Positions 1-63,375 of a stretch of 64,000 bases of DNA are shown here, in pieces. The stretch comes from a virus. Within the stretch, counting starts at the first letter, position 1, and every line of letters begins with the position of its first letter. Made by a program: the position numbers and the translations under genes. The notes under the pieces were generated by a model. It made no database searches. It was not told the DNA's origin and saw only the letters and a program-made list of their open reading frames with translations. The DNA is taken from positions 1 through 64,000 of IMG/VR virus record IMGVR_UViG_3300032309_002624, one strand, 5' to 3'.

Positions 1-1362
1 AAAGACCTTTACGATAGATTCTACGAAGGTAACGAACCAGCATTAGACCCACCAGGTTTATTTGACTATTCTAAAGGACAATATTCTGCAATCTCTGCTA
101 ACGTAACAACTGTGGCATGGTTAGCTGATAACTTAGTACCTTCAGCGTACACATTAGATAACTACAGAAAGGTTCTTATTGTATTATCAGGTTTCGCTAG
201 TGACGGTGCTGGCAAATTAATTGGTCCTGACGGTCAACCAATGGATAACGAAGCTTTCTTATCTGACTTGACAATCAAAGGTGCGGCTGGTAACGCTTAC
301 ACTTCAGGAAACACTAACAACCCTTATTTATTCAGAGTTGTAACTCAAAGATATGGTAAAGGTATTGTTGAGTATGGTAACAACAACTCTACGTTGATAT
401 TCCCTAACAGTAAAACTGACGGTGGTCAATATGACAACTTATGTGATGCTGAAGGTAAAATCTACTTAGAGGTTGATTTACAAGTACCAGTATGTATCAC
501 TTGTGGTGGTTCATTAGATGGTTATACAGGTTCAACATTTGCGTCAACAATTGCAACTAATTCTCAAGCGTTTACAGGTTCTTATAGAATCTATAAAAAC
601 TTAGAATTCGAAGATAGAATTGGTGAGGTTTCATTTGACCTTATGTCAGTAACAGTTTCTGTAACTGAAAGAAAATTAAGAGCACAATGGTCTCCAGAAA
701 TGGCACAAGACGTTGCGGCTTTCCACAACATCGATGCTGAAGCTGAATTAACAGCTTTATTATCTGAGCAAGTTGCGGCTGAAATCGATAGAGAAATCTT
801 GAGAGACCTTAGAAAAGGTGCGGCTTGGAACTTAAGATGGGATTACAACGGTTGGAAGAGATTAGGTTCTTCTGCTGTTCCTTACACTCAGAAAGACTGG
901 AACCAAACGCTTATCACAGCTATCAACCAAATTTCAGCTCAAATCCACAAATCTACCTTAAGAGGTGGAGCAAACTGGATTGTTGTATCTTCTGAAATCA
1001 GTGCTATTTTTGATGACTTGGAATATTTCCACGTTTCAAACGCAGCTCCTGAGCAAGACCAATACAACATGGGTATTGAAAGAGTTGGTACTTTAGCAGG
1101 TCGTTACCAAGTGTATAGAGACCCTTACTTCCCACCAAACCAAGTGTTAATGGGTCACAAAGGTACATCTTTACTTGATACAGGTTACATCTACGCACCG
1201 TACGTACCTCTACAATTAACTCCTACTATGTACAATCCGTTCAACTTCACTCCAATCAAAGGTATCATGACTAGATACGCTAAGAAGATGGTGAATAACA
1301 GATTCTACGGTAGAATCACAGTTGATGGTGTTAGAACTTTCGACTTAAGAGAATTGAGATAA
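1..1362 (+). CDS. 23: Major capsid protein gp23, 3' part
   Basis: The T4-like major head protein, which forms the hexamers of the icosahedral and prolate shell after prohead cleavage. Frame 1 is open from the first base of the window, and the residues before the first possible internal start (GTG at 112) read as normal coding sequence (KDLYDRFYEG...), so the gene starts upstream and is only cut by the window edge. About 453 residues are visible against roughly 520 for T4 gp23. Recognisable late-gp23 features are the RKLRAQWSPEMAQD segment, AEAELTALLSEQ, EIDREILRDLRK and the C-terminal RFYGRI tail. Codon use is strongly biased, as expected for the most abundant virion protein. A strong terminator follows directly. 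Confidence 0.93.
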   Translation, partial: KDLYDRFYEGNEPALDPPGLFDYSKGQYSAISANVTTVAWLADNLVPSAYTLDNYRKVLIVLSGFASDGAGKLIGPDGQPMDNEAFLSDLTIKGAAGNAYTSGNTNNPYLFRVVTQRYGKGIVEYGNNNSTLIFPNSKTDGGQYDNLCDAEGKIYLEVDLQVPVCITCGGSLDGYTGSTFASTIATNSQAFTGSYRIYKNLEFEDRIGEVSFDLMSVTVSVTERKLRAQWSPEMAQDVAAFHNIDAEAELTALLSEQVAAEIDREILRDLRKGAAWNLRWDYNGWKRLGSSAVPYTQKDWNQTLITAINQISAQIHKSTLRGGANWIVVSSEISAIFDDLEYFHVSNAAPEQDQYNMGIERVGTLAGRYQVYRDPYFPPNQVLMGHKGTSLLDTGYIYAPYVPLQLTPTMYNPFNFTPIKGIMTRYAKKMVNNRFYGRITVDGVRTFDLRELR

Positions 1363-1444: not shown

Positions 1445-2638
1445 ATGATTAAACAGACATGGAATATCAACGCGGATGAAAGGGTTAGAATCTTAAAACT
1501 TCATGAAAACGCCACAAAGAATTTATATTTAGTATCAGAACAAAATCCAGTGCAAGGACCTAATCCAAACGTTGTTCTTAATCAAGATGAAAATTATATA
1601 TATTTTTTATCACAACCAAATTTTGCGGTTACCGCCGACTACGTAGATTGGAAAAAGGATTATTTTGTATATGCATCAGATGGTGAAAACTCATATCAAA
1701 CAACTATTACATCTAAAGATGAAAAAGGTAGACCAACAAAAGTTGAAGTTTTAAAAGACAAGATTCTTCCCGATATGAGAAAGAACGAGTTTGTATTCAA
1801 TATGGTTAAATTACCAAAGAAAGAGGGTAATTATAATTACACATATGGTAACGAAATAACAAAGAGTGCATTTCTTTATCAAGCTCAGGAAGCAAGTGGT
1901 TTGAAAATGAATGTAAGATATTTTGCGGTTACTTGGTACAACGGAAAACCAATAACGGTTGCAATATCAGTAGAAGGTGGTCTATATGGAAAAGAAAACA
2001 GGATTGACTACGATGATTTAGAACTTTATTCTGAAACTCCATTCAATCCTTATACTGATGTATTTGTTAGTAAAAAACTTGGAGCTTTCTCCTTGATAAT
2101 GCCCACGTTGGTTTCATCATATCCTGTATCTATAGGGACTTCTCAACCACAAAAACCTAACGAAACCCCAGGAAAGAAACCCACCCCGCCACCACAACCT
2201 GTACCTTTAGGTGATAAATTTATGGATAATGTATCTATGCCAACTGCAGATGCTATCCTAAAAGACCCCAAGTTTATTGAGTTTAAAAAGTTTGTCGAGG
2301 GTAATGATATGTCTAAATTTGTATTCGACATTCAGTCATCTGCATCAAAATGTAGCGCAGGTTTTAAAGAATCAAATAAAGCAAACGGAAAGTGGAGTGA
2401 AGACAAATCCACTTATCCTGACGTTACTGTTGACTCACAAGCAGATAAAAATGATTTGGGTAATTTGAATTTAACCAAGGCAAGAGCACAAAATCTTAAG
2501 AACTTTTTGATTGCAAATGTACCAAAACTTAAAGACGCTAAATTTAGAGTTATTGCTCAAGGTTCTAAGGGTAAATGTGGGACTGAGGAAGAAAATAAGG
2601 AGTTTAGAAGAGTTGACCTTACGGTAACCGCCCTTTAA
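1445..2638 (+). CDS. Tagged protein with C-terminal OmpA-like domain
   Basis: A 397-residue protein of unknown function. Residues 1-32 form a helical tag ending LYLVSE, followed by Q33. This resembles the tags of the genes at 5494 and 5963 and could be a head-targeting signal removed by a prohead protease after V-S-E. Residues about 35-230 are an unrecognised beta-rich region. Residues about 232-255 are a Pro/Lys linker (KKPTPPPQPVP). The C-terminal third looks like an OmpA/MotB peptidoglycan-binding domain (LTKARAQNLKNFL, then EFRRVDLTV at the end). It lies downstream of a late-type motif and the gp23 terminator, so late expression is likely. The OmpA-like domain suggests contact with peptidoglycan, for example during DNA entry or lysis. 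That role is inference. Confidence 0.6.
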   Translation: MIKQTWNINADERVRILKLHENATKNLYLVSEQNPVQGPNPNVVLNQDENYIYFLSQPNFAVTADYVDWKKDYFVYASDGENSYQTTITSKDEKGRPTKVEVLKDKILPDMRKNEFVFNMVKLPKKEGNYNYTYGNEITKSAFLYQAQEASGLKMNVRYFAVTWYNGKPITVAISVEGGLYGKENRIDYDDLELYSETPFNPYTDVFVSKKLGAFSLIMPTLVSSYPVSIGTSQPQKPNETPGKKPTPPPQPVPLGDKFMDNVSMPTADAILKDPKFIEFKKFVEGNDMSKFVFDIQSSASKCSAGFKESNKANGKWSEDKSTYPDVTVDSQADKNDLGNLNLTKARAQNLKNFLIANVPKLKDAKFRVIAQGSKGKCGTEEENKEFRRVDLTVTAL

Positions 2639-3101
2639 TCTTCTCAGCAATAAGTACTTCCATTTCATAACGGTCAGAATATTCTTTCACATAGGGTGTA
2701 AAATATAAATCTGAATTTACATGAAATATTTCAAAGTATTTACAACCACCCCACTTCACGTCGGAATTCTTGTATTGTACATAACAAACACTTTGAACTC
2801 TCATTTTTGTCTTATCTAACTTACTAAACTGATAAGTGTCCAAAAACTTTAATGAATTAATCTGTCTATAGTAAGTAAGAATGTAATTCTTGTAATCTTC
2901 CAATAACTTATTGATAGGTGTAAATTTTTCAACGTCTATAAGTTTATATTCGAATTCAACATTCAATCCATACTTTTTCATTTGTTCGATATCTTCAGAG
3001 GCTTTCACTTCATTCAGATAATACACGTATCCTTTATTCTGAGAATGAGACACTAAAGATACAAATACAAGTAGTAGGGTTAGGATATATTTCATATTCA
3101 T
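2619..3101 (-). CDS. Small secreted protein of unknown function
   Basis: 160 residues from the start chosen here. The open frame extends to 3263, but the first 54 residues look non-coding and the internal start at 3101 gives a clean signal peptide (MNMKYILTLLLVFVSLVSHSQ) typical of Bacteroidota exported proteins, with cleavage near S-Q. A close match to the Bacteroidota housekeeping promoter sits directly upstream at 3110-3140. The rest is charged, with many Tyr and Lys residues and no family I recognise. It converges on the OmpA-domain gene and overlaps its 3' end by 20 bases. A phage-encoded periplasmic protein under a host-type promoter could be an early host-takeover or superinfection-exclusion factor, but nothing in the sequence proves this. 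Confidence 0.6.
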   Translation of the reverse strand: MNMKYILTLLLVFVSLVSHSQNKGYVYYLNEVKASEDIEQMKKYGLNVEFEYKLIDVEKFTPINKLLEDYKNYILTYYRQINSLKFLDTYQFSKLDKTKMRVQSVCYVQYKNSDVKWGGCKYFEIFHVNSDLYFTPYVKEYSDRYEMEVLIAEKIKGRLP

Positions 3102-3109
3102 AGTTTTTA

Positions 3110-3140
3110 CAAAGATAATAAAATAATTGTTTTCAACAAA
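3110..3140 (-). promoter_or_regulatory. Bacteroidota housekeeping promoter (TTTG-N19-TAnnTTTG)
   Basis: On the minus strand TTTG (3140-3137) is followed by exactly 19 bases and then TATCTTTG (3117-3110). This matches the -33/-7 consensus of the Bacteroidota primary sigma factor. The start codon of the secreted-protein gene is 8 bases further on, so the leader is very short. It is the clearest host-type promoter seen in the window and supports the host assignment. Confidence 0.7.
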
Positions 3141-3264
3141 AAAATTTATTGTATAATTATATATAGATTTTAGTTTATCAGTCCCCAGTCTCAATGGCTG
3201 TAGAGTATTCACGGATACAAAGGTATTGGTAACGTAGTCATAAGCTAATATAAAATTAAACAAA

Positions 3265-4074
3265 ATGAATTACGCAACACAAGTGGGCAAGCCGACTGCG
3301 CACATCACAAAGAAAAAGTCACGTCTTAAGGTTTATAACGGCCACATTGTCTTCTTAAATGATAAAGACAATTTTGAATTCGAAATTCACAATCCTAAAC
3401 AAAAATCGGTTCTCTGTAAGATTAAATTGAATGGTGAATACATTTCTACAAGTGGTATTGTATTAAGACCAGGTCAGAGGGTCTTTTTAGAACGTTTCCT
3501 TGACTCTAATAACAAGTTTGAGTTCAGTACCTATAAAGTGAAAGACACGTCTGAAAACAGGTCTGCAATCGATTTAAATGGGGACGTATTAGTTGAGTTC
3601 TACGATGAACAAGAACCTATCAGAAATAACTTCTATTTAGGAGGCACCGTAACTCTCTCTAATCCTTTGTACTATGGTACAACAATTAACACTACAGGAG
3701 GTGTCGGATATGGAACAACAACTTCAACATATAATACATCGAATGTTAGTTATACGAGTTCTGTTATTCCGAATACTTTCAGAAGTAAATTTGACGTATC
3801 AAATACGTTGTTGAGTGGCAAACCTAATTCACTAAAGAAGAAAAGTAAGTCAATCGAAACAGGTAGGATTGAAAAAGGAGAACAATCTAATCAGAACTTT
3901 ACCAATTCATATGAACAATTTAATTATTACACATCTCACACAATTAAATTTAAGATTCAACCAACAAGTACAAAAAATATTAACGTTGAAGAAATTAGAC
4001 AATATTGTACTGAGTGTGGGGTCAAGGTGAAAAAGAACTTTAAGTTCTGTCCATCTTGTGGAAACAAATTATAA
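3265..4074 (+). CDS. Protein with C-terminal zinc ribbon, function unknown
   Basis: 269 residues. Residues about 10-120 look like a compact beta domain (RLKVYNGHIVFLNDKDNFEFEI, LRPGQRVFLERFLD, DVLVEFYDEQE). A low-complexity Gly/Thr/Ser/Tyr stretch follows at about 125-175. The last 25 residues form a zinc ribbon with the pattern YCTECG - 12 residues - FCPSCGNKL, so all four Cys ligands are present. Such ribbons usually serve protein or nucleic-acid contacts. The gene stands alone between a divergent secreted-protein gene and a bidirectional terminator. No late-type motif is visible upstream. Confidence 0.6.
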   Translation: MNYATQVGKPTAHITKKKSRLKVYNGHIVFLNDKDNFEFEIHNPKQKSVLCKIKLNGEYISTSGIVLRPGQRVFLERFLDSNNKFEFSTYKVKDTSENRSAIDLNGDVLVEFYDEQEPIRNNFYLGGTVTLSNPLYYGTTINTTGGVGYGTTTSTYNTSNVSYTSSVIPNTFRSKFDVSNTLLSGKPNSLKKKSKSIETGRIEKGEQSNQNFTNSYEQFNYYTSHTIKFKIQPTSTKNINVEEIRQYCTECGVKVKKNFKFCPSCGNKL

Positions 4075-4076
4075 AT

Positions 4077-4104
4077 AAAAAAGGACCCCGTGAGGTCCTT
4101 TTTT
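4077..4104. terminator. Bidirectional terminator between convergent genes
   Basis: AAAAAAGGACC (4077-4087), loop CCGTGA, then GGTCCTTTTTT (4094-4104). The A tract on one side and T tract on the other let it end transcription in both directions. It serves the zinc-ribbon gene on the plus strand and the 77-residue gene on the minus strand, whose stop codon touches it. Confidence 0.88.
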
Positions 4105-4337
4105 TATTCTTCAGTTTGGTCTTCCGTAAAGTGTTTATTCATTATTCTTAGTGATTTTGAAACTATTTCTGACTCCTGTAAAGTGAATAATCTAGATTTA
4201 TGAGCGAACTCTAACGCTTGAATCATCATGTAATATGCTTGTTCAAAATTCATATCATCACATAAAGTGTTTATATCGTTTGGAGTGTAATAAGCAACAC
4301 TGTCAAAAAGTAATCCTAAAGGTTGTTTCTCTGTCAT
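4104..4337 (-). CDS. Hypothetical 77-residue protein
   Basis: A small acidic protein (MTEKQPLGLLFDSVAYY...), probably helical through residues 25-70. No family recognised. It is a stand-alone gene that ends on the bidirectional terminator and is divergent from the gene at 4376, with 38 bases between the two starts. The intergenic region holds a TATTTATTA motif directed at the plus-strand gene. Confidence 0.5.
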   Translation of the reverse strand: MTEKQPLGLLFDSVAYYTPNDINTLCDDMNFEQAYYMMIQALEFAHKSRLFTLQESEIVSKSLRIMNKHFTEDQTEE

Positions 4338-4355
4338 AATTCTAATCTATTTGTA

Positions 4356-4364
4356 TATTTATTA
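4356..4364 (+). promoter_or_regulatory. Late-promoter-like motif TATTTATTA
   Basis: TATTTATTA, 11 bases before the start codon at 4376, in the orientation of that gene. It belongs to the recurrent TATTTAT family. Confidence 0.5.
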
Positions 4365-4375
4365 TAGTAAATAAT

Positions 4376-5053
4376 ATGAAAAAAAATACACTTAAGGAAG
4401 CGACAGGTTCGGGTAGTTCAGGAAAATTTAAGGTACCAATTGTACTTGCACCACAACCATGGGAAGAAAATCAGTTAGCACCGTTCACCGACCGACTATA
4501 TTCGTATACAAATGCTGAATTAGCGTATGAGGAGGCTGATGGAGATTTTAAAGAATCACCAGAAAAAAGAGCCCAAATTGAAAAAAGAACTAAAGGTTTA
4601 TCTAAAGCAACAGAATACTTGAAAAAGTTTTATACAGGACAAAATGATGAAGAGGGTTCCGCTGTGAATCCAACTATGAGTGGACTTCCATTGAAAGAAG
4701 AATTTTTAAAAGAGGATTTGGCGGTTTGGTTCGGAACAAAGAAAAAACCAAAAGGTAGTAAACAACCTAAAGGTCCTTGGGTTAATATTTGTAGGAAAAA
4801 AAAGGGAGGAGGTCATCCTCCTTGTGGTAGACCTGAGGCTAGTGACAAAGGTTATCCTAAATGTAGAGCCGCTGGAGTTGCAAGTAAAATGAGTGACTCC
4901 CAAAAACGTTCAGCGTGTCAACAGAAAAGAAAGGCCGAGAAAACAAATCCAAAATCCGGTACGGGCAACAAACCAAAAATGGTTTCATACAAACCCAAAA
5001 ACGAAACAATTAAAGAAACAATCAAAAGAGTTCTGAAAGAACATTTTAATTAA
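4376..5053 (+). CDS. Basic DUF5872-like protein with Cys/His motif
   Basis: 225 residues, very rich in Lys. Residues about 130-185 (WVNICRKKKGGGHPPCGR, then GYPKCRAAGVASKMS and RSACQQKRKAEK) look like DUF5872, a small Cys-containing basic domain known mainly from large viruses. The N terminus reads MKKNTLKEATG, with an L-K-E/A site that fits T4 prohead-protease specificity. The last 16 residues (KETIKRVLKEHFN) resemble the tags of the genes at 5494 and 5963. The charge and the late-type motif upstream suggest a DNA-associated internal virion protein. That is inference, and the family has no known biochemical role that I can cite. Confidence 0.55.
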   Translation: MKKNTLKEATGSGSSGKFKVPIVLAPQPWEENQLAPFTDRLYSYTNAELAYEEADGDFKESPEKRAQIEKRTKGLSKATEYLKKFYTGQNDEEGSAVNPTMSGLPLKEEFLKEDLAVWFGTKKKPKGSKQPKGPWVNICRKKKGGGHPPCGRPEASDKGYPKCRAAGVASKMSDSQKRSACQQKRKAEKTNPKSGTGNKPKMVSYKPKNETIKETIKRVLKEHFN

Positions 5054-5465
5054 GATTGTTCAAGATACTCTGTAATGAGTGTTTAATATTACGTCTAATT
5101 TCGTCTTGAATATTTTGTCTTTCTTCTTCTAAAATTGAGTCAAATTTCTTTATCAATTTAGTGTACGAGGAGTGTTCTTGTACGTATACTGTGTAAGAGT
5201 AAACATGATTTGTGATGTTAATTGTATGATTGTTAATCACAACGAACATTTGTTTATCTTCGTTTACTATGAATCTACTTTCTGATACAGGTGCGAAAGT
5301 TAATTTTGACGAAAGATTTTCCAAAAGTTTCATGCATATTTGAAGAGAATACTTCTCCTCGTCCGTAATTTTTGGAGATTGGTCAAATCTATCTTTCAGT
5401 TTGAGATAAAATCTGAATAATAATTTTGTGAAATATCCCACTGTTCTTTTGTCTTCTTTTTCCAT
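5046..5465 (-). CDS. Hypothetical 139-residue protein
   Basis: A Lys/Glu-rich N-terminal helix (MEKEDKRTVGYFTKLLFRFYLK), a predicted beta region in the middle (MFVVINNHTINITNHVYSYTVYV) and a C-terminal coiled-coil-like helix. No family recognised. It converges on the DUF5872-like gene and overlaps its end by 8 bases. A TAnnTTTG element lies 4 bases before the start codon, so it may be transcribed by the host enzyme. Confidence 0.5.
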   Translation of the reverse strand: MEKEDKRTVGYFTKLLFRFYLKLKDRFDQSPKITDEEKYSLQICMKLLENLSSKLTFAPVSESRFIVNEDKQMFVVINNHTINITNHVYSYTVYVQEHSSYTKLIKKFDSILEEERQNIQDEIRRNIKHSLQSILNNLN

Positions 5466-5469
5466 ACGA

Positions 5470-5500
5470 CAAATATAGGGGAAAAAAAATTAATTAACAA
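5470..5500 (-). promoter_or_regulatory. Possible host-type promoter (TTG-N20-TATATTTG)
   Basis: On the minus strand TTG (5500-5498) is followed by 20 bases and then TATATTTG (5477-5470), close to the Bacteroidota consensus. It would give an almost leaderless message for the gene starting at 5465. The -33 box overlaps the 3' end of the upstream gene. Confidence 0.4.
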
Positions 5501-5961
5501 TATGCGCCTGAACAATGTTTTTTTCCATCTAATCCTGGCATTTTACCTTTACACACTTGAACTGCATATCCATTAGCATATGCTGATGGGTAAACTTTAA
5601 ATTTAGATTTTGCTGCGGATTTCCCTCTGGCACAAAGTTTAGTTCCTGTTTTTTTTCTTCCCTCGTTGATGTCTTCGTAATCAACGTACTCTTCTCTTTT
5701 ATTTTTTTCATTCATTATGAAGTCAAAAACTTGGTCCATATTTGTTTTGGCTTCCGTTACATGGTCATCGGCCCAATCGTGACCGTCTTTGATAATCTCG
5801 TCAATCATCATAGGGTCCATATCCAATAACATTTGACATTGTCTTGCCATTTGTTTTAGATTACTGAAAAACATATAATTTTCAGGTTCTTGCTGTTCTC
5901 TAAGAACTTTTTGTACCAAATGGTTCAAATCTTTTTCTGTTAATTTTACTATTTTATTCAT
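5494..5961 (-). CDS. Tagged basic Cys-rich protein
   Basis: 155 residues. Residues 1-22 are the tag MNKIVKLTEKDL...KVLRE, almost identical to that of the next gene upstream, with an L20-R-E22/Q23 site for a T4-type prohead protease. The middle is acidic and helical. Residues about 103-155 form a basic domain with KLCARGKSAAKSKFKVYPSAYANGYAVQVC and four Cys in all (ending CSGAYC), a motif I associate with viral proteins that also carry DUF5872-like domains. It is last in the minus-strand operon headed by the motif at 7882. A likely role is an internal head or DNA-binding protein, by inference. Confidence 0.55.
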   Translation of the reverse strand: MNKIVKLTEKDLNHLVQKVLREQQEPENYMFFSNLKQMARQCQMLLDMDPMMIDEIIKDGHDWADDHVTEAKTNMDQVFDFIMNEKNKREEYVDYEDINEGRKKTGTKLCARGKSAAKSKFKVYPSAYANGYAVQVCKGKMPGLDGKKHCSGAYC

Positions 5962-5962
5962 A

Positions 5963-6364
5963 TTATTTCCAGCTGTCTAAGTTTAATGTTTTTATTTGAT
6001 TTAAAATTCGTTCATTTATATCAGAATATTTTCTAAAATGATAAAGTGAATTATCAATTAGGTTAACAATTGCATCTTTTCTTTGTTGTGGCATGTTTAA
6101 TGAAGAAACTTTTGTTCTTAGTTGTTTTAACTCCAACATAACCTTTTCGTTTGGAACATCTAAATTTTTTAATTTTCTAACAAGGTTTTCTAGTTTACTC
6201 ATATTTTGAAAATAATCTGCTCCGTAACCTCTTTTAACTCCTTTAACCCCTCTATATAAATCTTTAACACCATCAAAGATTCCTTCTTCAACCTCCTGTT
6301 CGGAGATTACTTTTTTTACCAATCTATTTAAATCTGATTCAGTTAATTTTACTATTTTACTCAT
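5963..6364 (-). CDS. Tagged small helical protein
   Basis: 133 residues. The tag MSKIVKLTESDLNRLVKKVISE (residues 1-22) matches the following gene at 16 of 22 positions or better, and the putative I-S-E/Q cleavage site falls at exactly the same residue. The remainder after a short Gly-rich segment (GIFDGVKDLYRGVKGVKRGYG) is helical, with regularly spaced Leu (ENLVRKLKNL, MLELKQLRTKV). It sits 1 base from its downstream neighbour and overlaps the upstream structural gene by 4 bases, so all three are co-transcribed and probably late. Confidence 0.6.
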   Translation of the reverse strand: MSKIVKLTESDLNRLVKKVISEQEVEEGIFDGVKDLYRGVKGVKRGYGADYFQNMSKLENLVRKLKNLDVPNEKVMLELKQLRTKVSSLNMPQQRKDAIVNLIDNSLYHFRKYSDINERILNQIKTLNLDSWK

Positions 6365-12866: not shown

Positions 12867-13673
12867 TTATGCATTTTCAGATTGATATTTTATGACTCTA
12901 TCGTCTGTGAAGAAATATTCTCTTTTCGCTGTTTGAATCCAAAATTTAACCTCGTCTTCAACCATTTTACTTTCTCCGAACTTATAATTCCAGAAAATAG
13001 AACCTTCTCTTAAGTTAACGTGCTTGTAGCCAAGTCGAGGAATTGTCATGATTGATACTGAATTGTATGATAATCTTAGTAAAAATTCATAAATAAATGT
13101 TAGTTTGATTGACGGTTTGAATCCACCAAAATCTTCGATTATTGATTTTTTAAATACGGAACCAGCAGTTTGAAAATTTTGATATTCTTGTAAAGTTTCA
13201 TTTGTTAACATTCCCATTTCTTGTGAGAAATTTGCTGCGAATGTTGCCTCATTTGTGAATCCTGCGAACATACCTTTTTCATCTGTTTCTACCACAACAG
13301 GTAAGAACATTTGTACTTCAGGATATGATTCAACATACTTCTGAACATTTTTAAACCAAATTGATGAGTATTCATCGTCGAATTCGAAAAGGGAAACCCA
13401 CGTACCTTTTGCATTTTTAATACCGTAATTTACTTGGTCGGCGTAATTAGGGTCTTTATCCCATAACAATTTTGTAACATTTAAATCTCCAAAATCGTAA
13501 GATTCTAAATGTTCAATCAAAGATTGTTCTTTAGTATGGACGATTACCAATTCCTCAAATTTGATTTGTTGGTTTTTTAAAGACATAATTGCCTTTTCAA
13601 AGTATTCGTTAAAATCTTTTGCCTTAGATGATTTAACTGGTAGTATTACTGATAATGATAATGTATTGCTCAT
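12867..13673 (-). CDS. Family 2-type glycosyltransferase
   Basis: 268 residues with a GT-A fold. The N terminus (LSVILPVKSSKAKDFNEYFEKAI) and LKNQ...ELVIVH match the nucleotide-binding start of GT2 enzymes, and FEFDDEYSS is the metal-binding DxD-like site. The acceptor half has QTAGSVFKKSIIEDFGGF. Donor and acceptor cannot be told. It is co-directional with the GT-B enzyme at 13675 (1-base gap) and lies directly before the sigma-factor gene. Confidence 0.72.
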   Translation of the reverse strand: MSNTLSLSVILPVKSSKAKDFNEYFEKAIMSLKNQQIKFEELVIVHTKEQSLIEHLESYDFGDLNVTKLLWDKDPNYADQVNYGIKNAKGTWVSLFEFDDEYSSIWFKNVQKYVESYPEVQMFLPVVVETDEKGMFAGFTNEATFAANFSQEMGMLTNETLQEYQNFQTAGSVFKKSIIEDFGGFKPSIKLTFIYEFLLRLSYNSVSIMTIPRLGYKHVNLREGSIFWNYKFGESKMVEDEVKFWIQTAKREYFFTDDRVIKYQSENA

Positions 13674-13674
13674 A

Positions 13675-14727
13675 TTATTCTTCTGTTTTAGAAATTTGAT
13701 TTTCGAATGAGTCCGCTCTATTTTTCAAATACCCTTCGAATAATGAAACGATTGATAACTCAAATTTTTGTTTATCCGAATATCGGTCAACTGTGGTTTT
13801 CATTTTATCGAAAATAACAGGGTCGATATTGTCTTCCAACCAATTTTGTACGTAATCCGCAACAACATCGGCAAGTAATGTTTCGTCTGTAATCCATATA
13901 CCATTATCCTCTGTCATCCAATCAGGTGAGAGATTAGGTACTTTACCGATTACAGGAACATTTGACTTCATCGACTCTAATGGGAATGTACCGAATGCAC
14001 TGTCATCATCAATCCAAACACTTATAAAACAATCTCTAAGTGAATTAGCGAATTCTTTTTCTGAAAGACCTCTCAGGTCTCTGAATGTGAACCACCTATA
14101 TTGTGGAAATTTTAAATAGAAAGTTTTGATTAAGTTAACGGTATCACTCTGTTCTTTTGAGTGGACTCCAATAATTGGCATAGGAGGGGTTGATTTAGGT
14201 GTGAACTCTTCACTAATCAAAGGTTCAACAATATCATATGATATTTGCCTCATAACTCTCTCAATATACTCTTTTTGTTTGTTAGATGTTGTTATACACT
14301 TCAAAAATCCGAATTGATTCCATGTCTGACCTGGTTGTAATGTCTCTAACATATGAGCATATTGTTGGGTCAAAACTATTTTAGCACAAGGTAGTTGTTT
14401 TACTTGGTCCATCACGAATCCAAAAATTTCAGGGACAACTAAAAAATCTTCTGGTGAAATTTCCAAGTTTTGACCTTCAATTGCTTTATGAGGTAATGAC
14501 ATATACTCCTCATCTAACCACGCAATTACACCAGCATAATCCGCTTTTTCGTGTAAGATGATTGGATTAAATCCGTTGTCCTTTAATGTTTTTGCCATTT
14601 GATATATGAGCCTAACAGAAGCCTTGGCGTTACCCTTAGTATCTTGAACTAAAAAATATATTCTGGCTTGTTTGTCCCTCAATATATTGATGGATTGTTT
14701 TACTTTTTCCTGTAATTGATTTTCCAT
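13675..14727 (-). CDS. GT-B fold glycosyltransferase
   Basis: 350 residues. The N-terminal half has the acceptor-domain start ARIYFLVQDTKGNAKASVRLIYQMA. The C-terminal half carries the donor site FGTFPLESMKSNVPVIG, the usual GT4-type E-x7-E region, followed by a C-terminal helix crossing back. Likely a retaining enzyme. Substrates are unknown. It is part of the minus-strand sugar operon. Confidence 0.68.
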   Translation of the reverse strand: MENQLQEKVKQSINILRDKQARIYFLVQDTKGNAKASVRLIYQMAKTLKDNGFNPIILHEKADYAGVIAWLDEEYMSLPHKAIEGQNLEISPEDFLVVPEIFGFVMDQVKQLPCAKIVLTQQYAHMLETLQPGQTWNQFGFLKCITTSNKQKEYIERVMRQISYDIVEPLISEEFTPKSTPPMPIIGVHSKEQSDTVNLIKTFYLKFPQYRWFTFRDLRGLSEKEFANSLRDCFISVWIDDDSAFGTFPLESMKSNVPVIGKVPNLSPDWMTEDNGIWITDETLLADVVADYVQNWLEDNIDPVIFDKMKTTVDRYSDKQKFELSIVSLFEGYLKNRADSFENQISKTEE

Positions 14728-14728
14728 A

Positions 14729-15013
14729 TTAATAATGATTGATTAATTTTTTATTTAATAAACTATTAAATGCAATTCTAAACGGAATACTTGTATTGGA
14801 ATTTGACTTCATTCCAAGTTTTTCGTCCATAATTTCTTGTTCGGTCAAAATAGTTTCTAATAACATTTTAACCATTTCAAATTTAATAATGTTGATTCTC
14901 GTTTCTGTTGTACCTGTAGATGATTCGGTTGAATTTTCGTCTTGACCCATATCAAGATAATCTTCAATTTTATCCAAATCAATGAAATAATTCTCTCCTA
15001 AAACTGGTATCAT
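14729..15013 (-). CDS. Hypothetical 94-residue protein
   Basis: A short protein starting MIPVLGENYFIDLDKIEDYLDMG, with a Ser/Thr-rich loop and a helical second half (IKFEMVKMLLETIL). It overlaps the start of its neighbour at 15010 by 4 bases, so they are translationally coupled. No family recognised. Confidence 0.5.
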   Translation of the reverse strand: MIPVLGENYFIDLDKIEDYLDMGQDENSTESSTGTTETRINIIKFEMVKMLLETILTEQEIMDEKLGMKSNSNTSIPFRIAFNSLLNKKLINHY

Positions 15014-15603
15014 AGTATCTCTTGTATTTTTGTTTTGAGTTCTTTCAAACTCGATATGTTGTGTTCAGTATCAATATTTCCGTTATATGTGGTATTGAAT
15101 TTAATCACAATTTTATTTTTTGGATGGTTTAATAATAGGTTAGGATTTGCAGTAAGTAAAACGTCTACAGATTCCCACAGAGAATTTATTGTACTTTCAC
15201 TATAAAACTTTACCGCCTCAACTAAACAACCAAATTTTGATATGAAGAATAGGGACGCTGGTTTTGATTTGCCTATTTCATCGGAAACTATAAGAATATC
15301 GTGTTCGTCTCTCATATCCAAGTAGAATTCATTGAAATCCAATAATCCCGAAGGTTCTACAGAACCCGCGTGACCGAATATTTCCATAGTATGTTCTTTA
15401 TATAAAAAATCATACAACTCATCCTCATTTTTAAATTTCAAATGTTTTGCAATATCTAATGAATTTAAATCCGATAACACCTCGTATTTAAAGTCATCAT
15501 CCCCTTCGTCAAAAGGATTGTTGATGTACCACTTTTCATACTCCTGTTGTATTTTTTTTAGAGTGTCTCTGAGTACTCCATTTATTTCTATTGCTATTTT
15601 CAT
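15010..15603 (-). CDS. HAD-like protein with degenerate active site
   Basis: 197 residues. The layout follows small HAD phosphatases: an N-terminal motif I position, ILIVSDEIGKSKPASLFFISK for motif II and the lysine, and DVLLTANPNLL for motif III. The catalytic DxDG is replaced by E6-I-N8-G9, so ordinary phosphatase activity is unlikely. It may be a binding or regulatory protein. It overlaps PhoH by 4 bases upstream and the 94-residue gene by 4 bases downstream. Confidence 0.55.
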   Translation of the reverse strand: MKIAIEINGVLRDTLKKIQQEYEKWYINNPFDEGDDDFKYEVLSDLNSLDIAKHLKFKNEDELYDFLYKEHTMEIFGHAGSVEPSGLLDFNEFYLDMRDEHDILIVSDEIGKSKPASLFFISKFGCLVEAVKFYSESTINSLWESVDVLLTANPNLLLNHPKNKIVIKFNTTYNGNIDTEHNISSLKELKTKIQEIL

Positions 15604-16334
15604 TCTTCGTATCTTTCTAATATGTCTGATATTAATGGATTTCTTACAATATCTGTTGGTTTAAATTCAAATACCCCAATGTCATTCATATTTTGAAACT
15701 TTTTCAATGCATCCCAAAGACCTGTTTGAGTTTTGTCTTTGTGTCTGTCAAATTGTTCCAAGTCACCTGAAATAAAAAATTTGGAATTAAAACCAATTCT
15801 CGTTAGTAATAATTTCATTTGACTTGGTGTAGAATTCTGTGCCTCTTCGAATATTAGAATTGAATTATCAATATTCATTCCTCTCATATATGCCAAAGCA
15901 AATACCTCAATCGCCTCAATTTCTTTTAATTTTTCACGGGACTCTTTTCCTATTATTTTATTTAAAAGATAGTAAGATGGAAAGATATATGGGTCTAATT
16001 TTTCTTCGACACCACCAGGTAAACTACCTAATTTTTCTTCCGCTTCTACTGCTGGTCTGACAATTATTATTTTTTCGTATGGTGTGGTTGGGTCTGATAA
16101 TAAATCGACAGCACATTTCATTGCTATATAACTTTTACCAACACCCGCAGGTCCAGAACATATTGTTATTTGGTTTGTAGATAATTTATCGTAATATTCT
16201 TTTTGACTATCTGATAAAAATTTTTCTTTAGTTTTTCTTTTTATGATTGAACAGATTTGTTGTTTCTTATTTCTCATAGGAACCTCATCGTTCGATAAAG
16301 TTGCTGTAGGTCTCGGTTTTGTTAATTTACCCAT
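15600..16334 (-). CDS. phoH: PhoH-like ATPase
   Basis: 244 residues, the usual size for phage PhoH. Walker A is GPAGVGKS at residues 61-68 and Walker B is ILIFEEAQ at 159-166. The segment FISGDLEQFD near 187-195 is the characteristic PhoH sensor region. PhoH proteins are P-loop ATPases related to RNA helicases and are common in marine and freshwater T4-like phages. Their role in infection is unsettled. It lies 6 bases downstream of the epimerase gene and overlaps the HAD-like gene by 4 bases. Confidence 0.9.
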   Translation of the reverse strand: MGKLTKPRPTATLSNDEVPMRNKKQQICSIIKRKTKEKFLSDSQKEYYDKLSTNQITICSGPAGVGKSYIAMKCAVDLLSDPTTPYEKIIIVRPAVEAEEKLGSLPGGVEEKLDPYIFPSYYLLNKIIGKESREKLKEIEAIEVFALAYMRGMNIDNSILIFEEAQNSTPSQMKLLLTRIGFNSKFFISGDLEQFDRHKDKTQTGLWDALKKFQNMNDIGVFEFKPTDIVRNPLISDILERYEE

Positions 16335-16340
16335 TTTTAG

Positions 16341-17432
16341 TTATTTAATTTTATGTCTTTCAACACTACCAATTTCTCTTTTGAAAATTGTTTCTCCATC
16401 AGGACTTTCATAAATCCATTTGGTTTCCAATTCTTTTTTGTCAACCTGTGCCTTAATCCATTGGTATGTTTTTTTAAGTCCGATTGAAAGTGGTTGACTA
16501 ACTTCCCATCCGATTTTTTCTCTATATAATTTGTTATCTGAATTTCTACCTTGAACGCCTAAAGGACATTTGAATCCGTACTTCTGAACAAATTCTTCCC
16601 CATCAATATTTTTGATGTTAATATCTTTTTCTGATATTGCAATTGCCATTGAAGCAAGTTGATTAATGGTTACCATCTCCTCACTACCAATGTTAACAGG
16701 TCCTGTAAATTCTGACTCCATTAATCTCAATACAGCTTCAACACATTCATCCACATATAAGAAAGAACGAGTTTGCATTCCTGTACCCCAAACTTCGATT
16801 TCACCTCCGTTTGATGTTTCTGCTGCTTTTCTACACATCGCAGCTGGTGATTTTTCTCTACCACCAATCCATGTACCTTGTGGGCCAAAAATGTTGTGGA
16901 ATCTTGCTACTCTAACATTTAAACCATAATTTCTGTGGAATGCCAAGAATAATCTTTCTGAAAATAGTTTTTCCCATCCGTATTCAGAATCAGGATTTGC
17001 GGGATATGCTGACGATTCTTCACAGTTTGGATTTTCAGGGTCCAACTGATTGTGTTCAGGATACATACAAGCAGATGATGAGTAGAATACCTTACCAACT
17101 TTTTTCTTAACACACTCTCTTGCGACGTTAAGGTTGATTGTTGCTGAGTTGTACATAACATCCGCATCGTGTTCTCCAGTAAAGATGTACAATGCACCAC
17201 CCATGTCGGCAGCTAATTGATATACTTCATCAACACCTTCTTCAATAACAAGCTCAACAACCTTTGGGTCTGTCAAATCCCCCAAGATAAATTCATGACA
17301 AATTTCATCTTGGAAAAAGTATTCGTGTTTTTTTATATCACAAACTCTAACGTGATTTCCTTCTTCTTTTAATCTTTTGGCAAGGTGTCCACCTATGAAT
17401 CCTCCTCCGCCCAATACTACTATTTTTTTCAT
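16341..17432 (-). CDS. GDP-mannose 3,5-epimerase-like SDR enzyme
   Basis: 363 residues of the extended short-chain dehydrogenase family. The NAD site is GGGGFIGG (8-15). The active-site features are SSSACMYP (118-125) and Y151-x3-K155. Motifs typical of plant GDP-mannose 3,5-epimerase are present: RFHNIFGPQGTW, GGREKSPAAMCRKA, QTRSFLYVDECVEAVLRL, PVNIGSEEMVT and GRNSDNKL. The family converts GDP-D-mannose to GDP-L-galactose (and GDP-L-gulose). In this operon it could supply an L-sugar donor for the fucosyltransferase-like enzymes at 26584 and 27390. A related GDP- or UDP-sugar epimerase remains possible. Confidence 0.78.
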   Translation of the reverse strand: MKKIVVLGGGGFIGGHLAKRLKEEGNHVRVCDIKKHEYFFQDEICHEFILGDLTDPKVVELVIEEGVDEVYQLAADMGGALYIFTGEHDADVMYNSATINLNVARECVKKKVGKVFYSSSACMYPEHNQLDPENPNCEESSAYPANPDSEYGWEKLFSERLFLAFHRNYGLNVRVARFHNIFGPQGTWIGGREKSPAAMCRKAAETSNGGEIEVWGTGMQTRSFLYVDECVEAVLRLMESEFTGPVNIGSEEMVTINQLASMAIAISEKDINIKNIDGEEFVQKYGFKCPLGVQGRNSDNKLYREKIGWEVSQPLSIGLKKTYQWIKAQVDKKELETKWIYESPDGETIFKREIGSVERHKIK

Positions 17433-17436
17433 TTTT

Positions 17437-18063
17437 TTATTTTTTGAAATAAATCATTCCCCATTTTTCTTTTCTTTCGGGGTTTAGCTCCTCGAGTAGG
17501 TTGAAGTCCTGATATGATGTCCAATCTATATCCTCATCTAATTTGATTGCGTCGGCTTCAGTGTAACTGAATTGATTATACCCTAAATTTGTCAAATGGT
17601 TTATTATTAAGTTAATTTTATTTTTTTGTTCTTCGGCCCATTCAAAGGCAAATACGGTGTTTGGAAGTAATTTCGAAAATGAAGTTAAAACTTCGTACTC
17701 ATATCCCTCAATATCTAATTTGATATAATCAGGAATCCCATATTCATCTATTATATCATCTATTGTTATTGTTTCTACCTCTACTTCTCTCTTCCATTCA
17801 TATAAATCCGTGAATCTTGAGTTGTTAATCCAATCTTCCGAAAATGTTGAAATAGTGTTAGTGTTAGAAATTTTAAAGATTTGTTTTCCTCTATGGTTAG
17901 ATACTCCTCTACCGTCAACAACAACAGGTCTTTTAAAAAATCTATTCTTCAAGTGACTTACTAATGCAGGGTTTGGTTCGAAACAAATTACTTGTTCTGA
18001 ATTATTCAGAAATTCTTCTACTGTATTTCCAACATTTGCACCTATATCTATTACTAGCTTCAT
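17437..18063 (-). CDS. FkbM-family methyltransferase
   Basis: 208 residues. The SAM site is IDIGANVGNT (5-14), with CFEPNP for the second strand. The FkbM hallmark is ETITIDDIIDEYG followed by YIKLDIEGYEYEVL. FkbM enzymes O-methylate sugars or polyketides, and in polysaccharide clusters they usually modify a hydroxyl of the glycan. A second FkbM protein lies at 24176. Confidence 0.8.
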   Translation of the reverse strand: MKLVIDIGANVGNTVEEFLNNSEQVICFEPNPALVSHLKNRFFKRPVVVDGRGVSNHRGKQIFKISNTNTISTFSEDWINNSRFTDLYEWKREVEVETITIDDIIDEYGIPDYIKLDIEGYEYEVLTSFSKLLPNTVFAFEWAEEQKNKINLIINHLTNLGYNQFSYTEADAIKLDEDIDWTSYQDFNLLEELNPERKEKWGMIYFKK

Positions 18064-18088
18064 AAATTACTTTTCTTATTGTGAACTT

Positions 18089-19953: not shown

Positions 19954-19954
19954 A

Positions 19955-20563: not shown

Positions 20564-20564
20564 A

Positions 20565-24829: not shown

Positions 24830-24830
24830 T

Positions 24831-25505: not shown

Positions 25506-25506
25506 C

Positions 25507-36393: not shown

Positions 36394-36870
36394 TTATAAT
36401 TTTCTCATTAGTTCGTTTATTCTTTTCAGACTTTCAGTAACTGCTACATTATACCTATCAACAGTACTTGTATGTTGTTGTGAAGGTCTTACATTATTAA
36501 AATCCTTTTTTTCGTGAGGTTTGATAAATTGGTTTTGCATACCAGCATTCATCTTATTTGTCTTGGTCATTTTGGTGTAATCCCTCATTTTCCTCAACTC
36601 ATTATTTACCCAATTTTTCATCTCTGCACCACCATTTAAAATAAATGATGATTCTTTGTGGTTACCTTTAAAGTTGTCAAAAAAGTTTTTTATCCTTTTA
36701 AGTTGTTTGTACTCAATAAAGTTTTTTCCTTGTAATTCTTGGTTACGATTAAATCCTTCAGTGTTTTCATCGGCATCCTTTACCATGTGGAAACATTTTT
36801 TCATATGGTTCCTCATAGTATCAGGAAATTCAATTTCCCCTTTCGCTGAATTATATAAATCGTTATTCAC
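36394..36870 (-). CDS. Hypothetical 158-residue protein
   Basis: A basic, helical protein with many Asn and Lys residues (KQLKRIKNFFDNFKGNHKESSF, WVNNELRKMRDYTKM). No family recognised. It overlaps the upstream gene by 8 bases. Probably virion-associated, from context only. Confidence 0.5.
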   Translation of the reverse strand: MNNDLYNSAKGEIEFPDTMRNHMKKCFHMVKDADENTEGFNRNQELQGKNFIEYKQLKRIKNFFDNFKGNHKESSFILNGGAEMKNWVNNELRKMRDYTKMTKTNKMNAGMQNQFIKPHEKKDFNNVRPSQQHTSTVDRYNVAVTESLKRINELMRKL

Positions 36871-37684
36871 CTTGAATTAATTTAATTAGTTCTTTTTTTG
36901 AAACTCCTTGTTTTTCTGCCTGTTTTAATAAAGATGTAAGATTTCTCTTAACTAACTTTGGTAATTCTTCCATAGTTTTTCCTGAATCTTTTTTTCCAAC
37001 ATCAGCAGAACCTGAATCTTTTTTCTTCGCCAACATATCTTCAACAACTTTTATTGCCTTCATTTTTTGAATTTCGGACAATGTCGCTCTTGTGATAAAA
37101 TTAGGGTCTTTATAATATTTTGACTTTTTGTCTTTTTTACCTGAAGGGTCTTTACCTTGTTGTTTTGTTCTTTCTTTTGCTTCATCAGGTTCCATACCCA
37201 TATCTTTAACCAAATACTTGAAGGTGTCTTTACCATCCATGTCTTCAGTTTCCTCATATCCAAAAGCACCTGACATATCAATTTCTTTAACTTCACTCTC
37301 ACCGTAATATGTTCTATATCCACGAGAAATAGGGTCGTTTGTAATTCTTGATGCGGCAACAGTTTGGTCCATAGTTTTCTTTGGGTGTAATCTTGGGTCC
37401 AAGATAGGTATCTTAGAGTTTGACATTGCACCATCGGCGTTAACTAATTCTTCCAAGTCAGACTTAAGAGTTTTTGTGTCTTTGACTTTTTTCTCTTTGG
37501 CAACTTTTTTTAAATGTTTTTTCACCTTTTCACCTTTCTCTTTTGGGAAATGAATAACCTCATCTTTCTTACGTGCTTCGGTTAAAGTATTCTCCACAGA
37601 GAAGTATAATGAATATTTATTTCCTTTATCTCTCATTAAGAAATAATATGGTGATGAAAAAAATTCTGTGTCTGTAGAAATCAT
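36863..37684 (-). CDS. Lys-rich protein with possible prohead-protease site
   Basis: 273 residues, about one quarter Lys, with long charged helices (KGEKVKKHLKKVAKEKKVKDTK). An N-terminal segment ending E-N-T-L34-T-E36/A37 fits the T4 prohead protease pattern (L-x-E/A). The extreme C terminus (KNLTSLLKQAEKQGVSKKELIKLIQ) is helical. It is the first gene after the TATTTATAG motif at 37699. Size, charge and site resemble T4 internal proteins packaged with DNA, but there is no sequence match that I can name. Confidence 0.5.
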   Translation of the reverse strand: MISTDTEFFSSPYYFLMRDKGNKYSLYFSVENTLTEARKKDEVIHFPKEKGEKVKKHLKKVAKEKKVKDTKTLKSDLEELVNADGAMSNSKIPILDPRLHPKKTMDQTVAASRITNDPISRGYRTYYGESEVKEIDMSGAFGYEETEDMDGKDTFKYLVKDMGMEPDEAKERTKQQGKDPSGKKDKKSKYYKDPNFITRATLSEIQKMKAIKVVEDMLAKKKDSGSADVGKKDSGKTMEELPKLVKRNLTSLLKQAEKQGVSKKELIKLIQGE

Positions 37685-41813: not shown

Positions 41814-41816
41814 AAA

Positions 41817-42383: not shown

Positions 42384-42405
42384 AATAAGAATTAAGAATT
42401 AAAAG

Positions 42406-42414
42406 TATTTATAA
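42406..42414 (+). promoter_or_regulatory. Late-promoter-like motif TATTTATAA
   Basis: Only 2 bases before the ATG at 42417. If it is a -10 element the message would be leaderless or start inside the gene. Confidence 0.5.
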
Positions 42415-42416
42415 AC

Positions 42417-42716: not shown

Positions 42717-42761
42717 CCGATAATAAATTAAAAATAAAAAAATAAATGCAATAATTCGAGG

Positions 42762-42770
42762 TATTTATTA
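42762..42770 (+). promoter_or_regulatory. Late-promoter-like motif TATTTATTA
   Basis: Seventeen bases before the ATG at 42788, in an intergenic A/T-rich stretch of 71 bases. Confidence 0.5.
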
Positions 42771-57062: not shown

Positions 57063-57575
57063 ATGCAAAAATTAGTTCCAATAACAAGGTTAGGTAAATT
57101 CTTCGGGGCCGAGGATTATGATTTAGATATCGGTATGGGAGAGGAGTGGTTATTAGGTGACATGAATTTTACCGTAGTTCTATATCGTATTGATAGAATA
57201 AAAACAGAAACAGACAATGTGTATGGTGAAGTTTTGGAAGATGGTATACAGTTTTTAGCTCCTGTAGAATTGAAGGGATTGGTACAGGTTATGGCACCGA
57301 CAAACAAATTACTTGGTAATTCTAAAATTGAACAACAGGAGCCGGGTAATATGAAGTTTAGTATATATCAAAAAACCCTTGATGATTTGGGGGTTGAAAT
57401 ATTCTTGGGTGATTATTTGGGGTATTATGAAACTGAGGACCGAGTTAGATATTACGTTGTTAGTGATGATGGTTATGTTAAGTCCGATAACAAGCACACA
57501 TATGGTGGATATAAACCGTTCTACAGAACTGTTATGGCAACATATGTAAGTGAAAACGAATTCAGAGGAATATAA
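57063..57575 (+). CDS. Conserved-looking protein at the head of the tail operon
   Basis: 170 residues from ATG 57063 (start chosen because the promoter-like motif covers the earlier ATG at 57045). MQKLVPITRLGKFFGAEDYDLDI, DMNFTVVLYRIDRIKTETDNVYG and a beta-rich C-terminal half (VEIFLGDYLGYYETED, GGYKPFYRTVMATYV). I recognise no T4 counterpart. Its position before the gp15-like and sheath genes suggests a neck or tail completion component. Confidence 0.5.
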   Translation: MQKLVPITRLGKFFGAEDYDLDIGMGEEWLLGDMNFTVVLYRIDRIKTETDNVYGEVLEDGIQFLAPVELKGLVQVMAPTNKLLGNSKIEQQEPGNMKFSIYQKTLDDLGVEIFLGDYLGYYETEDRVRYYVVSDDGYVKSDNKHTYGGYKPFYRTVMATYVSENEFRGI

Positions 57576-57988
57576 TGAACGTTGTGATTACAGAATCTCA
57601 ATTCGATTCCCTTTTTTTAGGTAAAAAAGTTATGGTATACTTTAATCTACATAAAAAAACATTTTCTGTGTCTTATGATAATAAGGTCATAATGCACGCG
57701 GACTATGTAAAATTGGGAGATGTTGAGTTCAGAGTTAGAACAGGTGGTAGAGATAGAGTTAGGTCTGAAAAACAAAAGAACGTACACGCGTTTGTTATTG
57801 GAAATTTGTTAGAGTATTGTGAATATCCTTGTAAAAATATTCCAAATCCTCCATCAACTAATATTATAACATATAACCCATACAAAAACGAAACCTTTGT
57901 ATATAAAGATGGTGGTCAGCCAATATACACAGCAAAGGAAGTTGATATGATTAATTCAACCAATAAATTATTTGTAGTAAAGAAATAA
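57575..57988 (+). CDS. Hypothetical 137-residue protein in tail operon
   Basis: Starts MNVVITESQFDSLFLGKK. The middle is beta-rich and basic (VEFRVRTGGRDRVRSEKQKNVHAFV), with two Cys in EYCEYPCKNIP. It overlaps the gene upstream by 1 base and is 1 base before the gp15-like gene. No family recognised. Likely a tail assembly or completion factor, from context. Confidence 0.5.
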   Translation: MNVVITESQFDSLFLGKKVMVYFNLHKKTFSVSYDNKVIMHADYVKLGDVEFRVRTGGRDRVRSEKQKNVHAFVIGNLLEYCEYPCKNIPNPPSTNIITYNPYKNETFVYKDGGQPIYTAKEVDMINSTNKLFVVKK

Positions 57989-62544: not shown

Positions 62545-63375
62545 ATGAGAAAAGAATTTACAGAAGGATTCAAAGGTGAAGGAACCCCAGATTTAAAATA
62601 TTATGCATTCGATTGGGATGATAATATTGTTCATATGCCGACAAAAATTATTGTTAAGGATGAGGACGGTGAAGAAGTTGGGATGTCCACAGATGATTTT
62701 GCGGAACATAGACATCAGATTGGTAAAGAACCGTTTGATTATAAAGGAAGTTCAATTGTTGGATATGCTGAAAATCCATTCAGGAATTTCAGAACGGAAG
62801 GAGATAAAGATTTCTTAATCGATGCAATGAGAGCAAAAGTTGGTCCGGCGTTTGATGACTTTAGAGAATCAATTAACAACGGTTCGATTTTTTCAATAAT
62901 CACAGCGAGGGGTCACAATCCAAACACAATAAAAGAGGCGATATACAACTATATTATAAAAGGGTTCAATGGAATAGACAAAGAACAACTGATTAAAAAT
63001 CTGAAAAAATATAGGTCGTTTGTTGGTGAAGATGAAATGAGTGACGAAGAACTTATCAAATCATATTTAGAACTGAATAAATACCACCCCGTTTCTTTCG
63101 GGGACGATAAAGGGGCAAGTAATCCCGAAGAAGCCAAGGTCCGTGCAATGGAGGATTTTGTGAGTTATATTAAAGGGATGGCTGCAGTACTAAATAAAAG
63201 AGCTTACTTAAAAAATGATATAGGTAATAATTTCATTCCAGCAAAACCATCAATAGGTTTTAGTGACGATGACCCTAAAAACATAGAAGTAATGCAAAAA
63301 CACTTTAAAAATAAACCAGATAATATTGTAAAAACTTATTCTACTGCTGGAGGCACTAAAAAGGAAGTAAAATAA
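62545..63375 (+). CDS. HAD-superfamily phosphatase between sheath and tube genes
   Basis: 276 residues. Motif I D23-W-D25-D-N (YAFDWDDNIVH), motif II FSIITARGHNP, motif III GFSDDDPKNIE near 238-248, all with catalytic residues in place. Active HAD phosphatases act on sugar phosphates, nucleotides or DNA 3' ends. A long helical cap (about 140-215) lies between motifs II and III. It is preceded by a strong hairpin and followed by the tube gene's own promoter-like motif, so it is set apart from the two highly expressed tail genes. Substrate unknown. Confidence 0.7.
   Translation: MRKEFTEGFKGEGTPDLKYYAFDWDDNIVHMPTKIIVKDEDGEEVGMSTDDFAEHRHQIGKEPFDYKGSSIVGYAENPFRNFRTEGDKDFLIDAMRAKVGPAFDDFRESINNGSIFSIITARGHNPNTIKEAIYNYIIKGFNGIDKEQLIKNLKKYRSFVGEDEMSDEELIKSYLELNKYHPVSFGDDKGASNPEEAKVRAMEDFVSYIKGMAAVLNKRAYLKNDIGNNFIPAKPSIGFSDDDPKNIEVMQKHFKNKPDNIVKTYSTAGGTKKEVK

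Follow-up and report, generated by a model that had tools for sequence, protein, structure and literature searches.

Introduction

The closest described system is the capsid-targeting sequence (CTS) of phage T4, a short, helix-like N-terminal peptide on unrelated proteins (IPI-III and Alt), which ends in L/I-x-E and is cut by gp21. Ten residues of the CTS suffice for packaging, cleavage occurs at L/I-x-E, and the internal proteins co-purify with gp22; an aspartate in place of the glutamate prevents processing of the CTS but leaves targeting intact (PMC9026906). In the T4 record ipII is annotated as a precursor with residues -10 to 90. Here we analyzed a stretch of viral DNA (the window) that comprises the first 64 kb of the 74,080-base IMG/VR record IMGVR_UViG_3300032309_002624. 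The record is a fragment of a T4-like phage, which opens inside the gene of the major capsid protein (MCP; Pfam Gp23, E = 3e-61) and closes in genes of the tail or baseplate type. Two neighboring proteins of the window, cargo A (at position 5494) and cargo B (at 5963), begin with similar residues, and an initial annotation, made from the sequence alone, had proposed that this N-terminus is a tag with a gp21-type cleavage site, which loads diverse proteins into the phage head. The five proteins on which that proposal rested were all present where it had placed them.

The head propeptides of phiKZ, SPN3US, and 201phi2-1 are cut on the C-terminal side of a glutamate by a gp21-like protease, as is predicted for the tags described below. 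On the other hand, they are mostly longer than 100 residues, have an S/A-x-E motif, occur on few proteins, and include no tag common to unrelated bodies. In SPN3US, 15 N-terminal residues are common to two diverged paralogues (PMC5694885). In the phages studied here three recurrent N-terminal modules, T1, T2, and T3, were found, and we consider it quite likely that T1, T2, and probably T3 are capsid-targeting sequences cut by a gp21-type S77 protease, and that the mature cargo is injected with the DNA.

A short N-terminal tag recurs on unrelated proteins

The first 22 residues of cargo A (MNKIVKLTEKDLNHLVQKVLRE/QQ, where the slash marks the predicted cut) and of cargo B (MSKIVKLTESDLNRLVKKVISE/QE) were nearly identical, and the remaining parts of the two proteins fell into separate body clusters, as had been claimed. 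When N-termini were compared between proteins with non-matching bodies, with no motif supplied, the modules T1, T2, and T3 recurred on unrelated bodies. Many other N-terminal matches in this comparison were artefacts, arising from genes too short for body clustering or from signal peptides. T1 and T2 were rejected as signal or lipoprotein signal peptides, because on inspection they are charged amphipathic helices, and genuine signal peptides (MKKL...FSQ) fell into a group of their own.

T1 has the consensus M-x-K-[IV]-[IV]-K-L-[TS]-E-x-D-L..[LI]-V.[KR]-[VI]-[LI]-x-E-Q. A 24-residue hidden Markov model (HMM) of T1 gave about 75 matches of 18.8-50.6 bits, nearly all at the initiator methionine, among 11,558 open reading frames (ORFs) in 2.6 Mb of related loci, while the best reversed-sequence match scored 10.0 bits. 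In IMG/VR a DNA pattern of the T1 core was found in 118 stretches, and the matches listed for the R-type pattern MxKK[IL]IRLTESDLHRIVKESVNRILKE, longer by one turn of the helix, included many large contigs, up to 413 kb. The R-type contigs were read as rumen-type jumbo phages, with the environment judged from contig names and from matches to Prevotella. Hence the profile search that had been suggested in the initial annotation yielded many further putative cargo proteins, with the tag at the initiator methionine of hundreds of proteins. Overall the tag HMM scores were 13-51 bits, as compared to 10 bits for the best reversed control, and T1 spans uncultured T4-like phages from freshwater and jumbo phages from the rumen, with gut and freshwater Bacteroidota as hosts. 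A tblastn search of the phages collection with the bare tags gave no match for T1, R-type T1, or T2.

The T1 proteins of all loci together formed about 155 body clusters (blastp E <= 1e-3, single linkage), some of which may be remotely related. Tag counts per genome were left aside as too low, since identical ORFs of overlapping loci had been merged. Most of this cargo is unannotated; the recognized domains include phage lysozyme, peptidoglycan-binding, LysM, phosphoribosyltransferase, annexin, and zinc ribbons, and several endolysin-like PHROGs are also represented. The motif [LIV]-x-E was located at +15 to +21 of the tag core in 92% of the cluster representatives, as compared to 17.6% of 4,455 control N-termini. 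The glutamate was placed exactly at +17 (56 clusters) or at +21 (85 clusters), that is, four residues or one helical turn apart. Its P3 position was occupied by L (72), I (59), V (14), or M (4), so that L or I was present in 131 of 149 cases. Conservation was 4.32 bits at the glutamate in both registers and at most 1.7 bits at the next residue, where Q was found in 26 of the 56 K-type tags and mixed residues (G, S, I, A) in the R-type.

The homologues of cargo A and cargo B showed how the tag relates to the body. Among 37 homologues of cargo A, E22 was invariant, and insertions and other indels accumulated right behind it. In the AlphaFold2 (AF2) model the tag helix (residues 9-23) was separate from a confident helical domain (29-96), which was followed by a disordered segment (94-109). 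A second candidate site was found in this linker, ahead of the basic Cys-rich domain that is matched by PHROG 27331; its E100 was also invariant in the 37 homologues, with a hydrophobic P3. Among the relatives of cargo B, those on loci L082-L085 retained both tag and body, while those on L086-L095 matched in the tag alone. A separate observation is a single ORF on locus L007 (4469-5281, minus strand), which consists of an N-terminal T1 tag, an annexin-like stretch, a second T1-like segment, and a body of the cargo A family, and which is a possible double-cargo precursor.

Other tags and candidate cleavage sites

The initial annotation had described a comparable helix in the protein at 1445. 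The helix is real and its site, E32/Q33, is kept, but it belongs to a different tag, T2, and not to T1. T2 has the consensus ..[IL]-S-E-E-E.RIL.LHESATK..YL.SEQ, and its HMM gave 38 matches of 37-63 bits, including the protein at 1445, with a reverse control of 7.3 bits. In 22 syntenic orthologues, most of which adjoin gp23, residues 1-33 were conserved and the remainder was only 16-24% identical; M1, R15, I16, H20, T24, Y28, and E32 were invariant, and Q33 was kept in at least 90%. In the AF2 model only helix 10-33 was confident, and the mean predicted local distance difference test (pLDDT) score of 39.5 was too poor for a fold search. The designation of this protein as an OmpA-domain protein is weak, since the match had E = 0.078 only and missed the Pfam cut-off. 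The third module, T3 (MK[YI]IITES[QRK]...), had 32 matches, with a reverse control of 9.9 bits.

For the protein at 4376, a site after L-K-E8 and a terminal helix similar to the tag had been reported, and both were borne out. The site, [IL]-x-E/A (sometimes /V or /S), was N-terminally conserved in roughly 60 relatives listed, while the C-terminal helix is T1-like, and two homologues (L005 and L010) have a complete C-terminal T1. In the protein at 36863 the reported site was kept as [LI]-[TN]-E/[AS] at residue 36 in 10 relatives, but no tag stands ahead of it. The N-terminal site of the protein at 4376 and the sites of the proteins at 36863 and 62545 are candidate cleavage sites, not tags. The picture of a single tag has to be modified accordingly: the targeting idea stood, but there are several distinct tags (T1, T2, T3, and one in a cultured phage described below), and the proteins at 4376 and 36863 have sites without an N-terminal T1.

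The protease and the head proteins of the tagged phages

Peptidase S77 (gp21) was present in 17 of 20 MCP- or tag-related records, in 17 of 27 T1 records of at least 46 kb, and in 15 of 22 large R-type records. Of the records without S77, three have gp23 at a contig edge, and six T1 records have most ORFs in common with S77-positive genomes. The initial annotation had considered that a tag in phages lacking a gp21-type protease would speak against its proposal. Portal and S77 co-occurred, and in the sets searched for both no tagged record had a T4 portal without S77, so that no counter-example was found among the phages, within the limits set by fragmentary records. As a separate observation, in four rumen jumbo phages the S77 prohead protease is split by an intein-like insertion beside a conserved HP motif (GE/C...N/CNHP; L475 250-2073, L476 772-1914, L477 874-2028, and L478, in which the insertion point is different).

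The tagged phages resemble T4 in having an S77 (gp21) protease together with a gp22/gp23 head, and in the place of the MCP cleavage site. Their MCP has LINE/A where T4 gp23 is cut, with INE/A in 25 of 27 variants. In the freshwater scaffold protein, SL[SN]E/Q precedes an acidic region, and this site is invariant in complete N-termini. An L/I-x-E occupies the corresponding place in the rumen scaffolds, and RILE/A is present near the start of gp21. The tagged genes adjoin gp21 or stand behind gp23. The scaffold sequence ..QLVKESLSEQ looked T1-like by eye, but it gave no score with the T1 helix HMM, and for this reason only a shared site, not homology, is claimed for it.

Flavobacterium phage vB_FspM_immuto is among the nearest cultured phages by MCP, and its prohead protease is annotated. 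Like the phages with T1 and T2, it has a T4-like head, an S77-type gp21 (with LLTE/S near the N-terminus), and an N-terminal tag on unrelated proteins. Its tag, MKKQILSEQF[RK]RMQ.LAGIITES (MKKQILSEQFKRMQ.LAGIITES), which was found on two unrelated proteins, one of them gp83, is however unrelated to T1 and T2 and resembles the scaffold C-terminus of the same phage. That C-terminus, SEQVSRWQKLAGIIK, was the only other match of the tags in the six-frame proteome, with scores of 48 and 41 against maxima of 38 and 37 in 300 shuffles. This match, confined to immuto, is the best hint that the tags may act by copying a core-binding end.

Proposed capsid targeting and its alternatives

The capsid-targeting function is supported by the tags themselves, which form a mobile N-terminal module on unrelated bodies, by their terminal [L/I/V]-x-E of the gp21 type, by selection at the protein level, and by the presence of S77 in the carrier phages. 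Further support comes from the same type of site in MCP, scaffold, and gp21, and from the immuto cargo tags, which copy the scaffold C-terminus. From these data we infer core binding, cleavage, packaging, and injection of the tagged cargo. In the proposed mechanism, a short amphipathic helix, N-terminal or, in the 4376 family, C-terminal, would dock diverse cargo onto the scaffold core during prohead assembly. The gp21-type S77 protease would then remove the tag after [L/I/V]-x-E during maturation, and the mature cargo would stay in the head until it is injected along with the DNA. On this reading T1, T2, and probably T3 work like the T4 CTS, but they are not the same sequence family. The CTS (MKTYQEFIAE/A) has 10 residues, as compared to 22-26 in T1 and 32 in T2, and on inspection of the T4 record against the tag consensus the sequences are unlike. 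The tagged phages also differ from T4 in that several tags coexist within a single clade, the cargo bodies number about 155 rather than a handful, and a C-terminal form is possible. No description of T1, T2, or T3 was found in the open-licence literature.

Several observations weigh against this reading. The residue after the K-type site is often Q, D, or E (often Q in the freshwater phages), which is different from the usual A, S, or G of T4, although the scaffold site of the group is itself E/Q. At the level of sequence, the freshwater scaffold is unlike T1, no cargo copied its C-terminus above shuffles, and docking by mimicry appears only in immuto. The 74-kb record of the window lacks the gp20-gp21-gp22 segment and with it an S77 protease, which is explained by its being a fragment. 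S77 is also missing from 7 of the 22 R-type (rumen) records, but these are likewise without a T4 portal and, except for one contig edge, without gp23. Finally, solitary R-type tagged genes, about 25 of them, are present in genomes of Bacteroidales, among which are the isolates Segatella baroniae B14, Prevotella sp. MA2016, and tf2-5, and S77 is absent from 18 of 20 Bacteroidales genomes that carry tagged genes.

The shape of the tags would also suit an uncleaved helix for packaging or docking, by which cargo is fixed to some component of the virion or the host, with the terminal glutamate as a feature of the helix end only. The tags make well-formed amphipathic helices that have an N-cap (T/S-E-x-D), helices may end in a conserved charged residue, and cleavage is a prediction, with a K-type P1' that is unusual for gp21. 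Such a helix does not explain why both registers retain a hydrophobic P3 and a glutamate at P1 while P2 and all positions beyond P1 are variable, why indels in the homologues of cargo A gather right after E22, or why the same type of site is present in the scaffold and, at the position known from T4, in MCP. We regard this explanation as unlikely. Slightly less probable still is an address for a target outside the head, such as the host membrane, RNA polymerase, or another target at the infection stage, which phage and host copies would both use. It could account for the solitary tagged genes in Prevotella chromosomes without S77, and the cell-wall or lysis type of several cargos (lysozyme, peptidoglycan-binding, LysM) could mean that they act in lysis. 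On the other hand, the tagged genes are neighbors of gp21 or follow gp23, and the immuto tag equals a scaffold end. Moreover, in 14 of 31 host loci an IS1595-type transposase lies at most 0.7 kb from the tagged gene and has homologues in tagged phage contigs; because of this, the host tagged genes are read as mobile passengers from phages, although they may have a role in the host. On Prevotella chromosomes (L484-L516) the immediate neighbor of the R-type tagged genes is a transposase gene of the IS1595/ISXO2 type (e.g., L489 1321-2765, L505 2-1548, L507 1228-3089, L510 4808-6823), and rumen jumbo-phage contigs (L394, L359, and others) hold transposases 80-90% similar to the Prevotella ones. 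Tagged genes may thus travel between phage and host as passengers of insertion sequences (IS).

The common N-termini could in principle also be remnants of recent duplications, or a 5' element acting at the nucleotide level (a promoter or translation-initiation cassette), in which case the peptide would have no function. It is true that the tag is shared by the neighbors cargo A and cargo B, and that T1 genes sometimes cluster (locus L147). However, when tags on different bodies were compared within a locus, 45% of the residues that agreed were encoded by different codons, and the mean nucleotide identity between T1 tags within a locus was 67%, which indicates that selection acts on the peptide. 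Tag and register are also kept across freshwater and rumen phages on the many bodies counted above, and the 4376 family has its tag at the C-terminus. The codon comparison led us to reject this explanation, which we regard as extremely improbable.

If the capsid-targeting reading is right, a label of 22-32 residues would reveal from sequence which of the many unannotated proteins encoded by jumbo and T4-like phages from gut and freshwater are carried in the particle. Proteins that enter the cell with the DNA would be those most likely to fight host defenses first. Genes of unknown function would become a testable list of injected effectors, on a scale that makes cargo prediction possible. It would also mean that the targeting logic of T4 evolved different labels in different lineages, and it would offer a packaging tag for Bacteroidota phages. 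A wider and considerably more speculative proposal, to which we give a minor chance, is that the tags form a modular code for capsid loading, common to the whole clade of T4-like and jumbo phages of Bacteroidota. In it the label would make any gene an injected cargo, and IS1595-type transposons would ferry labeled genes between phages and Prevotella chromosomes, so that hosts may supply cargo to the heads of infecting phages.

Other genes of the window

The features discussed above are collected in Table 1, together with two further proteins with a T3-like N-terminus or a conserved N-terminal site.

Table 1. Positions of head-related genes, tags, and predicted or candidate cleavage sites in the window
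Feature	Position	Strand	Evidence
Major capsid protein gp23, 5' end cut by record edge	1..1362	+	Pfam; relatives with LINE/A at the T4 gp23 cleavage place
T2-tagged cargo, next gene after the major capsid gene; C-terminus weakly OmpA-like	1445..2638	+	HMM, orthologue alignment
T2 tag, residues 1-32 (MIKQTWNINADERVRILKLHENATKNLYLVSE/Q)	1445..1540	+	HMM, orthologue alignment, AF2
225-amino-acid basic Cys-rich protein, N-terminal [IL]-x-E8/A9, C-terminal T1-like helix (NETIKETIKRVLKE)	4376..5053	+	Family comparison
Tagged cargo A, 155 amino acids: T1 tag, compact helical domain 29-96, basic Cys-rich C-terminal domain	5494..5961	-	Alignment, AF2, PHROG
Second candidate gp21 site in cargo A, [ILMV]-x-E100/G101	5662..5670	-	Alignment, AF2
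T1 tag of cargo A, residues 1-22; predicted cut after E22 (L-R-E/Q)	5896..5961	-	Alignment, AF2
Tagged cargo B, 133 amino acids (MSKIVKLTESDLNRLVKKVISE/QE...)	5963..6364	-	T1 HMM; relatives
T1 tag of cargo B, residues 1-22; predicted gp21 cut after E22 (I-S-E/Q)	6299..6364	-	HMM, site statistics
273-amino-acid protein, conserved L/I-x-E36/A or S, no tag	36863..37684	-	Family comparison
137-amino-acid protein, T3-like N-terminus (MNVVITES...), T3-like family	57575..57988	+	Motif-free comparison, HMM, family comparison
276-amino-acid protein, conserved N-terminal [FIL]-x-E7/G, possible short propeptide	62545..63375	+	Family comparison

Elsewhere in the window, a long series of glycosyltransferase, methyltransferase, epimerase, aminotransferase, and NAD-synthase-like genes (12867-30872), which is unusual in a T4-like phage, perhaps serves glycan or DNA modification. 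The large proteins encoded at 37737-44005 contain long Thr/Pro-rich (TPTPTxTxT) repeats and are probably fiber or adhesin stalks. A conserved 126-amino-acid protein (35718-36098, minus strand) has a weak WYL-domain match, just under the cut-off (E = 2e-4), and the conserved start MKL..[AS]LK.L[IL].E[IV]A.

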